From Cynocephalus volans (lineage: Eukaryota > Chordata > Mammalia > Dermoptera > Cynocephalidae): a DNA stretch of 64,000 nucleotides. The stretch is from assembly GCF_027409185.1 (NCBI RefSeq), contig NC_084475.1, forward strand, positions 16,264,130 through 16,328,129, written 5' to 3'. Shown here in pieces: positions 2,200-47,322 of the stretch (position 1 is the stretch's first letter; each line of letters opens with the position of its first letter). The notes under the pieces are model-generated. The model did not search any database and had not been told where the DNA came from. It was given only the letters and a program-made list of their open reading frames with translations. The position numbers and the translations under genes are program-made.

Positions 2200-5100
2200 C
2201 TGTAGGATCCAAAGAGACAAGCAGCATGAGATGTGGCAGAACAGCTGAGTGCCCAGAGGAGGAGTGATCCTGAGTTAGTAGAGCAGGGCTTCCTCCACAG
2301 TGACCAGGAGTAGGGAGACCAGCAGAGATGGAGGCAGAGAAAAGATCCCAGGGTAAGCATGGCTAAGACACCTGCAGCCTATCAGCAAGTTTCCCCACCA
2401 TAGGGCAGCCCAGCTTACAGGTCAAAGCAAGAGTTAAAGGGGCAATTCCAGCACATATGGGGAACCTAAAAAAACACACAGCCAGAGGCCCAGTGGAAAA
2501 AATAATGTACTTAAAGAAACAAGATTAGGCTCTGCCACTTATGAGCTACACAACCTTCAATAAATCCTTTATGACTACTTTGAAGAGGGAAAGGGATAAT
2601 ATTTATTGAATACGCACTATGAGCCAGTTTATATATTTGTCTCATTTAATTGTTACAGTCACCAACACATGAATAGACCATTCTACAGATGATGAACCTG
2701 AGATTCATATAGGTAATTCTGTACAAAGTCACACAGTGAGGGACAATAGAACTAGCATTTGAGGTTAAGGGTAATTTACTTCAAAGCTGGCTCCTAATAA
2801 GACATGGCAGACCCAGGGTTCAAACTCTGATTCCAAAGTCTGTGTTCTTTCAACTAATTCCACCCTGACTAACTCAGGGTCACTGAGAGGTTCAAGAAGA
2901 CCATGTACAGGAAAGTGCTTGTACAAGGCATTATTGTTTGGTGTTAATCACAGCAAAGGGCTTGAGCTATAGCCCAAAATGTTTCTCAAAGGTCAAGCCA
3001 CGGCTGGAGGTAAAAGACTTCCCAATAGTTGCCAGTGTGGGGTCAGGAGGCTGGGATGCACCCTGACTCTTACAGACTGTCAGTAAGCAGTAACGAGGAG
3101 TGATGGTAATAAGATCTTGGCCTTTGGCTTACCACCGGGAGCAGTTTAAAATATTTAGCCCCCTCGCAGGGTCCACCTGCTAAGGAGATACAAGGGAACA
3201 GGGCTGTGTTAATGGACAGCCTGACACTCTGCACATGCTGCCCCCTTTCCCAGGGGATGGCAGAACTGTGCTGTGCCTCAGAGAAACTGTCAGCATTCAG
3301 GCTGGGTACGAGGGACTCTCTCCTGGACCTCCTTCCTCTCTGACCCTAGAAGGAGCACCTGGCCCTGGTCCTCCAGACAGAGCACTCAGCAGCCCACCCT
3401 GAGTCAGCCCCAGACCTGGAAGGCAAGGCAAAAACCACAGCTTACCTGACATTGGCTTTATCCACTCCCATCCCAAAACTAATGGTTGCAACAATCACAG
3501 GGACCTTCTCCTCCATCCACTCATTCTGCACCAGCGTTCTTTCAGAAGACTTCAGCCCTGTAAAGGAGGAAAAGATGGAGAAGAGAACTCACATTTCCCT
3601 TGGGTCTACCTTGGGGTCAATCTTGGGTTTTACACTATGCTGGGCACTTTACACACACCCTGAATCTATCACTTTCCATCTGGATGACCTTGGGCCAGGT
3701 ACTTAACCTCACTGAGTCTCAACCAATAAACATAAAGACCTTAGCCCATGTGTGGCCCAGAGCTCTCAATAAATGTTAGGGCCATGATTCAAACCCAAGT
3801 CCAAAGCCAAGTCCTCCAAAGACAGTGCACTTTCTACAACACCAATATCTGGGCTTACAAAAACTTGTTGCCTGATGCTGGGTGGGCATAGGGTGAGAAA
3901 AAGAACCCAAGAGTCACAATTCTCATTTTAGACCTCATTTGTGTCTAGACTCCTTTTAGTGGAATTATGTGAATCACTTTAGACTAGGTATCTGGAAAAA
4001 GATAATGGACCGTCTGATTATCCAGGGTCTGTAAGGAACAAGAGAACCACTAAAAGGCCTCTAAGAGTGAAGGACCACATGTTCTGGGTGCCCCTTACCT
4101 GCATGGTAAGCCTTGGCGTTCACACCCCTGCAAGTGAGCTCTATCGCCAGCTGTTCACAAGCCTCTCTAGTCCTGCAATAGATAATGCCGCAGCCAGACA
4201 ACTGTATGGGGAGATAAGGGAAGAAAATAAGCAATGAGAACAGAACAATCAGCTGTGTGCTCTTTCTCTCATTGGCTTCACGGTCTCCTCTGAGGCAGGA
4301 CACATAGCAGGGCTCTGCCACTTTATAAAAAGCAGGACCAAAGCAGCCCAAAACCCAACCTGCTTAACTCCTCTGTCTCTTCCCTGAAAACCTTATGTAG
4401 GTCTGCAAAGCCCTCATACAGAGGGGCCAGCTACTTGCCTTCAACAAAAGGATCTGGGATAAGGGAACCCCAATAAGAGGGACAATGCCAGGAAACCAAA
4501 GGGACAGCTATCTTTGTGCATGAGTTTTAAGAAGACTGGCTAAGAAAGCTAGAAAAGTAAAGGTCTTAGAAAACCAAAATCCATTTCTATGCTGCAGATA
4601 GCACCCCAGTGCTCCAGATGTTTCTTGGCCCCCCAACTTCAGTGCCTCACCCCTTTATCAGCCTTCTGCCCAAGAGCCTTAAAGCAGAAGTCCCTCAGGT
4701 TCCCAAAGAGATCAGAAATAAGCTCTTTGAACTGCACATCATAGAAGAGGTTGGGCCGGAAGCAGGGAGTCTTGAAGGTGGCAACTGGTTGCTTCAGGTG
4801 CAGGGCAACAAACACATCTTCTTGGACCTGCAGGGTGGCAGTGGCAGTCAGAGCCACACATGGGGCATGTGCCAGGCGGGAGCGCAGGGCACCCAGACGC
4901 AAGTAGTCAGGACGGAAGTCGTGCCCCCACTGGGAAATACAATGAGCTTCATCCACCACCAAGTAAGAGAGCAGGTGGCGGGACACCAGGGATTTCAGGA
5001 CAGGCTGGAAGGAGGCTGATGCTGCCATCTCTGGGGTGATGTACAGAAGTTTGGTCCGGGGCTTTTCTTGCTCCAGGTCAGAGAGCAGCTCCTTCCTCTC

Positions 5101-44709: not shown

Positions 44710-44911
44710 AAGAATGACTGCAGTGGATTGTGAACTGCTGAGTAAATAAAAATCCATTATCCGTAGCAATAGTGAGTTAGATGTACTCATATCGATTCCT
44801 TACTCCAAAATTGATAATTAAAAGAATTATCCCATCGCACTGTTGATGGGATGTGAGACAGTGCAACTGCCATGGAAAACTGGTGCTTCCTCCAAGAAAT
44901 TAAAAATAGAG

Positions 44912-46908
44912 GGATCCAATCAAGATGGCAGAATAGACCGTCTACAACGTCACTCTCCCACAAATCAACCAATTCACAACTATAAAAACGTAGCATGAGC
45001 CCAGCTGGGGCCGCTGGAGCTCAGGGGAAGGCAAGGAGAGACCTATGGAGTTCATGAAGGCCGGAGAAACTACGATGAGAGAAAGAAAAAGCTGCTCTGA
45101 GCGTTTCGGGCCGTGGCTGCTTTAAGGCTCGAGCTGCTGAGCACATGGAGCAGGAACTGGCAGAAGTTGCAGCTGTGCCCTCCAGATGGAGTTGCTTGGA
45201 GGCAGCAGGAGAGAAGAGGACCTTGGTGGCCCCCAGGACAGCAAGACCACTAATAGGGTTCCCATGGACCCATGCAGGAGCGAGGAGCCAGAACAACTGA
45301 AAAAAGGCAGCCATTCAGAGGCCAGTGAGTCATTGCAAGGCATCAGTGCAGGGCCGGTCACATGGGAACTGTTTGCAGCACGGGTGGTGGGGGAGACAGG
45401 CCCACCAGGGAACACTGGGGCACAGCAAGAACAGCTGAGCTGCCCCCCAATCAGCACAGGACCACTCAGAGGAGACTGGTCAGGAATGCAGAATTGCATG
45501 CAGTGCAGTTTGATGAAAAAACTCAGGCCCAGATCAGAGATTCTACAGAACACAGATCCACCGGGTCTCTGGAGAGCCAGAAGTACCTATAAGGTCAACC
45601 ATTAAACCCTGAGCTGCACAAAAAGCCTTCCCTAGGGAAACAGCAGCAAAGCAGCAATTTAAACAACCACTCAGCTCAAGTACTGGTTCCACAGGAAGTT
45701 CCCCCATGTTAGAAGCAAAGGACAAAAAATTAGTTCCGGACCAGGCACACCACCAGCACCTTGGGGCCTGCCTGGGAACTGGAGGCTTGGATCTGGGGAC
45801 TGGACCCCAATCCCACTTCCAGGCAAACTGCAGTGCATCGGGGCCAGCCTGGGGACTTGAAGCATGGAGAAGAGGACTGGACGCCCCTCCCACAACCAGG
45901 CACACCACGCCAGCACCTTGGGGCCTGCCCAGGGACCTGGGGTATGGAGTCGGGGACCTGACCACCCCCCACAACCAGGCACAACATGCCAGCACCTCGG
46001 AGCCCACCCAGGGAGCTGGGGCATGGAGAAGGGGACTAGACCTCTCTCCCACAACCAGGCACACCACGCCAGTACCTTGGGCCCTGCCCAGGGACCCAGG
46101 GCATGGAGAAGGGGACCAGACCACCCTCCCACAACCAGGCACAGTGAGCCAGTGCTTTGGGGCCCACCCAGGGACCCAGGGTATGGAGTCAGGGACCGGA
46201 CCACCCTCCCACAGCCAGGCACAACATGCCAGCACCTCGGAGCCCACCCGGGGATGTGGGGCATGGATAAGGGGACTGGACCTCTCTCCCACAACCAGGC
46301 ACAACATGCCAGCACCTTGGGGCCTGCCAGGGGACCCAAAGCAAGGAGAAGGGGACCAAACACAGCCCACAACCAGGCATACCGCCAGTGCCAAGGAGCA
46401 TGCCAAAAACAGCATCCCCACGTGGGTGGCCTACCACAGTCACCACAATAACCATGGCTGCTGCAAAAGCGGCTAGACGGCACAGCCACCATGCAGATAG
46501 TCTGCCAACCACTGGAATGCATTCACATAAGAAGAGTCACCAGCAGAGACAAAGAAAAGAAGAGGATGTCTCTTTCCACAAAACCCATTTCAGAGTGACA
46601 GAAGAAGCATCTGCTCTATGATAATATTGGGGGACCTGATCACATCTCTCAGCATTGGACAGATCATCTAGGTAACAAGTTAACAGAGTAACCATGATTC
46701 TTTCAGAAGGAGAGAAGAAATCTAGACAATTAGCGGGTGGAGGGGGAGGGAATGGGGGAAGGGGGAGGTTGGACAAGGGGCATAAAGAATAATTATGATT
46801 TGTAACAATATATGTGCTAGTAATAGTGATTTAATCAACATATCTCAATGTTCAACCCCAAAAATATGTATAATCGATTTTGATTCAATAAATAAAATAA
46901 TTTTTTTA
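44912..46908 (+). mobile_element. Composite SVA-like retroelement: L1 5' end + VNTR + L1 3' end
   Basis: A 2.0-kb insertion bounded by AAAAATAGAG at 44902-44911 and 46909-46918. The 5' end GGATCCAATCAAGATGGCAG contains the CAAGATGGC YY1-type motif found at L1 5' UTR starts. Next come ~830 bp of GC-rich sequence, 8.4 tandem units (45741-46404), a linker, a piece resembling the L1 ORF2 endonuclease region (CTCAGCATTGGACAGATCAT near 46650), a G-rich purine tract (46735-46765) and an L1-like 3' UTR with AATAAA motifs. It has no ORF1 or reverse transcriptase, so it must have been mobilised in trans or be an internally deleted L1. The target TT|AAAAA is an ideal L1 endonuclease site. It is non-autonomous, and the family name is unknown to me. 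Confidence 0.8.
45741..46404 (+). repeat. VNTR of the composite element, ~8.4 units of 77-80 bp
   Basis: Unit starts (CCAGGC) are at 45741, 45819, 45896, 45975, 46055, 46135, 46215, 46295 and a partial at 46373. Each carries a variant of CAGCACCTTGGGGCCTGCCC and GGAGAAGGGGACTGGACC. Internal units are exactly 80 bp and outer ones 77-79 bp. Confidence 0.95.
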
Positions 46909-47322
46909 AAAAATAGAGCTACCATAGTCAATGATTCCACTTCTGGGTATACATCCAAAAGAACTGAAGGCAGGGTCGCAGATATTTGCACACCCATGTT
47001 CATAGCTGCATCATTCACAATAGCCAAAAGGTGGAAGCAACCCAAGTGTCTGAATGGATAAACATACTGTGTATGTACCTACAATGGGATATTATTCAGC
47101 CTTAAAAAAGAAGGAAATCCTGTCACATGCTACAACAAAAATGAAGCTTGAAGACATTACGCTAAGTGAAATAAGCCAGTCACAATAAGACAAACACTAC
47201 AATACCACTCATATGAAGTATCTAAAGTAGTCAAATTCCCAGAGAAAGTAGAATTTGGTTACCAGGATAATAGAGGGAGGTGAAATGGAGAGTTGTTTAA
47301 TAGGTACAGAATTTCAGTTTTA

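Follow-up and report, generated by a model that had tools for sequence, protein, structure and literature searches.

An abundant family of VNTR-bearing retroelements in Cynocephalus volans that very probably arose from an internally deleted L1

SVA elements are about 2 kb long, and mouse L1s carry in their 5' UTR a tandem array of monomers of about 200 bp. In the excerpts of PMC4432496 on which we draw, SVA-type elements have a 5' CT-hexamer/Alu-like region and VNTR units of 30-50 bp and are confined to hominoid primates, and in LAVA the VNTR sets the efficiency of mobilisation and changes via a microhomology-driven route. Human SVA amounts to about 6,000 copies according to an excerpt of PMC13174262. 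The HAL1 elements are non-autonomous L1 deletion derivatives that turned into families, with several origins among mammals, and they encode ORF1p (PMC5753468, excerpted text). SpIREs are described as generally evolutionary dead ends in the excerpted part of PMC5860796.

We analysed a window of 64,000 nucleotides, that is, the whole stretch of C. volans DNA presented above, in which a retro-insertion of 2.0 kb sits within an old L1. The first-pass annotation had proposed a perfect 10-bp target duplication, and this proved exact: AAAAATAGAG stands at 44902-44911 and again at 46909-46918, and at 11 bp both sides disagree. The accompanying proposal that removal of the insertion restores an old L1 was also borne out. 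Joining the flanks gave one frame (...KKLKIELP*SMIPLLG..., with a single internal stop), which we take to resemble L1 ORF2, and the right flank matched residues 1189-1212 of human L1 ORF2p (E 1.9e-5). The features are as follows.

44902 to 44911, + strand: left target-site duplication AAAAATAGAG, exact 10-bp repeat
44912 to 45740, + strand: part A, 5' region of ~830 bp, with the L1-like first bases GGATCCAATCAAGATGGCAGAATAGACC in the window copy; presumed internal Pol II promoter
45741 to 46391, + strand: part V, VNTR of 8 units of 77-80 bp and a further incomplete one; probably from a tandem array in older L1 5' UTRs
46392 to 46618, + strand: part B, end of the L1 5' UTR, immediately upstream of ORF1 (supported by profile matches at 8 of ten further L1 loci and by an alignment)
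46607 to 46636, + strand: diagnostic 30-mer spanning the deletion junction between 5' UTR and endonuclease (B/E); 7,128 genome matches with at most 3 mismatches
46619 to 46693, + strand: part E, remnant of the ORF2 endonuclease, ~75 bp (about ORF2p residues 140-169), with a frameshift and a stop
46694 to 46896, + strand: part U, L1 3' UTR; it contains AATAAA at 46887 and, further upstream, a G-rich purine tract at about 46733-46771
46897 to 46908, + strand: A/T-rich tail
46909 to 46918, + strand: right target-site duplication AAAAATAGAG, exact 10-bp repeat
46919 to 47300 (right bound approximate), + strand: host old L1 (ORF2 C-terminus and beyond), split by the insertion, with its left portion running up to 44911

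Elsewhere in the window lie an integrin beta chain exon (PF00362, 56400-56756, + strand) and a DEAD/DEAH helicase exon (PF00270, 4639-5331, - strand), which we take to belong to ITGB4 and RECQL5, as well as nine tRNA-family matches from tRNA-derived SINEs, presumably of the colugo CYN type. When two patterns were compared with viral contigs, one match (L001) was obtained for the first and none for the second.

The element opens on an L1-like 5' start. This start holds the motif AAGATGG, which we take for the YY1-type motif of the first pass, and a comparable start is found in L055, a young full-length L1 of the same genome that begins ...CAAGATGGCGG. The central array, initially put at 8.4 tandem units of ~79 bp, was recovered both by TRF (45740-46356, 7.8 copies of an 80-bp unit with 75% matches) and by a script, which delimited 8 units of 77-80 bp and then a partial unit. 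Its GC content is 65%. Identity among the eight full units was 64-94%, with the peak between units 4 and 7, in agreement with a 240-bp TRF row. Because 80 is not divisible by 3, stop-free frames of 283-295 codons extend over the VNTR on both strands (window 45543-46430 and 45671-46522 on the - strand, 45613-46476 on the + strand); the + frame had no Pfam match.

The window element turned out to belong to a family, as had been claimed, and not to be a single copy. With at most 3 mismatches, the diagnostic 30-mer matched 3,538 + 3,590 = 7,128 times in the whole genome, a count that takes in 5'-truncated copies, and its reversed control 0 + 0 times. A 22-mer from the 5' start, which contains fast-decaying CpG sites, gave 108 + 124 = 232 exact whole-genome matches (control, 0). 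Searching the whole genome with the element yielded 84 matches in the best 40 loci of 12,222 first-look candidates. In all 40 scored loci, that is, the window element and 39 others, parts V, B, E and U were ordered and adjoining, with identical joins. A search with part A only, in which the best 40 of 7,666 candidates were scored, added four loci, each with the same layout, so that 44 of the 44 younger copies examined have it in common; since the copies were drawn from the best-scoring candidates (40 of 12,222 and 40 of 7,666), look-alikes are favoured. An older tier emerged when sequence of a nested old copy served as query (best 40 of 5,684 candidates scored, 6 examined). The B/E join was present in 6 of these 6 loci and the E/U join in 5; in L070, E is missing its end and U its start. 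A second old copy, in L005, has the B-E-U order unchanged. Many copies with common deletion junctions are expected of an internal-deletion derivative of L1, and such copies were found here.

VNTR length among the 44 copies varied from about 5 units up to 57, with a median of 9.9. The unit span of L029 is inflated by a nested older copy, and the abundance of 8-unit copies is partly due to their selection by likeness to an 8-unit query. For 233 units of exactly 80 bp, identity was 0.774 within a copy versus 0.780 between copies. Belonging to one copy thus does not make units more similar, which suggests that the variety of the array was inherited and not made anew in each copy.

Possible source L1s were sought in the same genome by a Pfam search, from which the best 150 of 46,496 candidates were scored and three young L1s and ten other L1 loci examined. 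The young L1s (L053-L055) have an open ORF1 of 340 codons, and L055 has an ORF2 frame of 1,282 codons; they are likely to be the current helpers. The 5' UTR of L055 starts with CAAGATGGCGGCGG, and the 3' UTRs of all three carry (CA)n and two G-rich tracts. As a source of the element's ends these three were rejected, A, V, B and U being unmatched by Blast and E being the sole match. Two other observations concern L1 ORF1 in this genome. Three equal-scoring matches lie exactly 5,812 bp apart (G000:C30:167964224, 167970036 and 167975848), probably a tandemly repeated L1 unit, and 157-codon ORF1 frames of equal or nearly equal score are clustered, tens of kb apart, at G000:C30:69952869-70440736, possibly an amplified segment.

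Part B was matched right ahead of ORF1 at 8 of the ten other L1 loci, best in L064 (E 1e-32, profile search), and had no profile match in the remaining two, L060 and L063. In L062, an additional, separate match to the B profile lies upstream of the first (2286-2393, E 4e-10). A search with B plus ORF1 of L064 returned sequences of 82-85% identity among the best 40 of 8,457 candidates, L064 itself excluded, and on the upstream side of 3 loci taken from it the L1 was seen by eye to start in or beside repeat units right before B. The remnant resembling the ORF2 endonuclease, already suspected in the first pass, found support from two sides. Translated with one frameshift bridged and the stop written as X, part E matched nine PDB sequences under an E cut-off of 10 (best E 0.0072). 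The matches cover residues 139-169, which are numbered 662-691 in a longer construct; seven of the nine sequences are named LINE-1/ORF2, and the other two are named LR1 and LTX, which we presume to be L1 endonuclease variants. Part E also matched the endonuclease region of all three young L1s (L053-L055), with 75-77% identity over 57 bp. As for the L1-like 3' UTR with its G-rich purine tract, this assignment held as well: U-like 3' UTRs stand, by eye, behind ORF2 C-terminal remnants in five loci of the genome (L003, L005, L007, L008 and L060; profile E 1.2e-15 to 1.9e-5), and the likeness of L060 may come mostly from the purine tract.

The origin of part V was less direct to establish. Directly before B, the L1 in L074 has 3.2 units of 61-62 bp. 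Its alignment to an old family member's VNTR, spanning about three units, scored 62 versus at most 43 in 500 shuffles; with a young VNTR, the score of the array was reached by 4 of 500 shuffles. A periodicity of 80-88 bp was present immediately upstream of B in 6 of the 8 L1s with a B match (reached by 0 of 300 shuffles), and none was detected there by the shuffle test in L061 and L064. The upstream stretch of L063, placed by hand, had a periodicity score of 34 versus a shuffle maximum of 32, and the two young L1s tested had no periodicity. A profile of the young VNTR unit gave nothing significant in 16 L1 loci (best E 3.6 in 13 and 0.27 in 3). We also considered the ~80-bp repeats of L065 and L057 as relatives of the VNTR and rejected them, their likeness being no better than chance: their scores were reached by 27 of 200 and 107 of 200 shuffles with the young VNTR, and by 15 of 200 and 62 of 200 with the old one. 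Given these misses, the L1 origin of V rests mainly on L074, whose units are about 62 bp long versus 77-80 bp in the element. One significant alignment together with position supports L1 ancestry, and V probably descended from a tandem array that older L1s carried in their 5' UTR. B, E, U and, by this one alignment, V are matched, in L1 order, by L1s from the same genome.

Part A matched none of the 16 L1 loci, a negative result made weaker by the fact that L064 and L072-L074 seemingly end at or near the array and that the three young L1s are another lineage. According to the first pass, intact L1s with the whole 44912-46404 block before ORF1 would make the element a one-off deleted L1; no such L1 occurred in the 16 loci, at least four of which apparently end at or near the array. 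Part A, array, B and ORF1 were likewise found together in none of the 16 as an autonomous L1, so the direct parent is not among them, and A might come from elsewhere. Upstream of its array, L065 had no sequence in common with the other nine L1 loci on the same strand. Within the family, L029 contains a fragment of part A at 81% identity, apparently within an older member. This old member is apparently split by a young one (oriented 2-555 and 3215-3811) and has ~560 bp between the A fragment and the VNTR, where the young copies examined lack it.

We then considered how the internal sequence was lost. At junction 1, 5' UTR sequence ending in CTCTA is joined to endonuclease sequence beginning with ATAAT, within a few bases; junction 2, near 46694, is placed less sharply. 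The first pass had raised splicing of L1 RNA as a possibility, and at junction 1 this received no support. In L1s used as proxies, no GT follows the upstream breakpoint (CTCTA/CCAGATGAYC) and no AG precedes the downstream one (CAATAA/CATAATAG). The lack of GT and AG moderately favours a deletion or template jump over splicing, these L1s being proxies and not the true source. An acceptor-like stretch, TTCTTTCAG, is present at 46698-46706, but since it is still within the element it is not the acceptor that was used.

Exact flank repeats of at least 10 bp were found in 20 of 35 5'-complete copies versus 61 of 1190 mismatched flank pairs; the other 15 copies had none of that length. The target sites of the 20 duplication-bearing copies lean towards YY/AAAA, and two are exactly TTAAAA. 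Together with the A-rich tails, these duplications and sites speak for trans action of L1 proteins. Substitution rates near 2e-9 per site per year were used for dating. Over B-E-U, non-CpG divergence from the majority was 1.2-5.6% in 40 copies. Pairwise distances were 1-7.5% (mean 4.3%) among six young copies, 11-18% (mean 14.2%) among six old copies, and 15-21% (mean 17.7%) between old and young; these sums omit the copy in L005, whose 33% distance may include misalignment and whose inclusion gives 18% among old copies. At this rate, the family would have been active from roughly at least 30 million years ago to a few million years ago, these dates being rough. Judged from such divergences, it appears to be long-lived and recently active.

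Taken together, we consider it highly probable that the window element belongs to a large retrotransposon family, long-lived and non-autonomous, namely an internally deleted L1 that is mobilised in trans. The ancestor would have retained the L1 5' UTR, with a tandem array directly before ORF1, and the L1 3' UTR; ORF1 would have been lost and ORF2 reduced to ~75 bp. This deletion may have arisen once in an L1 ancestor, by template jump or DNA deletion and not by splicing. The RNA would probably be made by Pol II from the element's own 5' end, in part A, and be copied into TT/AAAA-type sites by ORF1p and ORF2p of autonomous L1s in trans. Expansion and contraction of the array, presumably at the DNA level, would account for its range of unit numbers. 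The rival that retains some weight is a true VNTR composite like SVA, in which transcription or splicing would have brought together unrelated pieces, namely a 5' promoter part, a satellite-like VNTR and an L1 tail, the product then being mobilised by L1. Part A and the young VNTR profile are indeed without counterpart in the 16 L1 loci, and the number of VNTR units ranges as widely as in SVA and LAVA, but the L1-ordered counterparts of B, E, U and, by one alignment, V, together with the L1-like start of part A, make such a composite unlikely. Since B, E, U and probably V derive from L1, we are dealing with a shrunken L1 and not with a fusion of unrelated repeats. The label SVA-like given in the first pass therefore stands by analogy and falls as a description of a fusion. 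Its other reading, an internally deleted L1 with a VNTR in its 5' UTR, is the better of the two on account of B, E, U and probably V, though an L1 bearing the whole block did not occur in the 16 loci.

An origin from spliced L1 RNAs, arising repeatedly from L1 transcripts as SpIREs do and with no lineage of their own, seems to us more improbable still. It would fit two internal deletions with common ends, and spliced L1 insertions are known in human (excerpt of PMC5860796). It is at odds with the lack of GT and AG at junction 1 in the proxy L1s and the retention of the acceptor-like stretch; with the age tiers, six old copies being 14% apart and 18% from the young, which are 4% apart; and with the young L1s, which offer no A, V, B or U match to splice from. 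That the element is a one-off deleted L1 has practically no probability left, being refuted by the junction count and by the layout common to 40 of 40 scored loci.

How does such a family, an internally deleted L1 in our preferred reading, compare with the described systems? It resembles SVA, LAVA, PVA and FVA in being non-autonomous and ~2 kb long, with a GC-rich central VNTR of variable length and target duplications, and probably in relying on L1 in trans. It differs from SVA and LAVA in its units, of 77-80 bp versus 30-50 bp, so that the VNTR is GC-rich without having SVA-sized units, and in that most of its parts derive from L1. A tandem-repeat scan revealed no CCCTCT hexamer array in or before part A, and the window had no 7SL/SRP match at Rfam gathering scores, an indirect probe for an Alu-like region. 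By analogy the family would work like SVA, and it is not a member of SVA. With HAL1 it shares being a non-autonomous deletion derivative of L1 that became a family; HAL1 encodes ORF1p, whereas here neither ORF is present and B is joined straight to the endonuclease scrap. With SpIREs it shares internal L1 loss near the 5' UTR and insertion by the L1 machinery, and it differs from them by its thousands of junction matches, at least two age tiers and the absence of splice signals at junction 1. Finally, a tandem array in the L1 5' UTR upstream of ORF1 recalls the mouse monomers, yet these are ~200 bp long versus about 62-88 bp in the L1s studied here and ~80 bp in the deleted family.

A search of the literature, partial in coverage and with Repbase and Dfam outside it, returned no recognised description of the family; either database may list it. 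On a tentative note, the family might be a second, independent L1-borne VNTR element outside apes, one that inherited an L1 5' UTR array, added its own promoter part of ~830 bp, attained at least the copy number of human SVA and persisted for tens of millions of years; we see this as possible and do not count on it. If true, tandem arrays may broadly aid trans-mobilisation or escape from KRAB-zinc-finger silencing. VNTR-bearing elements that depend on L1 are described as hominoid-specific in PMC4432496, and the role of their VNTR is unsettled. With an array of its own, thousands of copies, widely ranging unit numbers and a traceable L1 ancestry, the colugo family would allow one to ask independently if arrays benefit an L1 parasite and for what reason. 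It also suggests that an ORF-less deleted L1 need not be a dead end.
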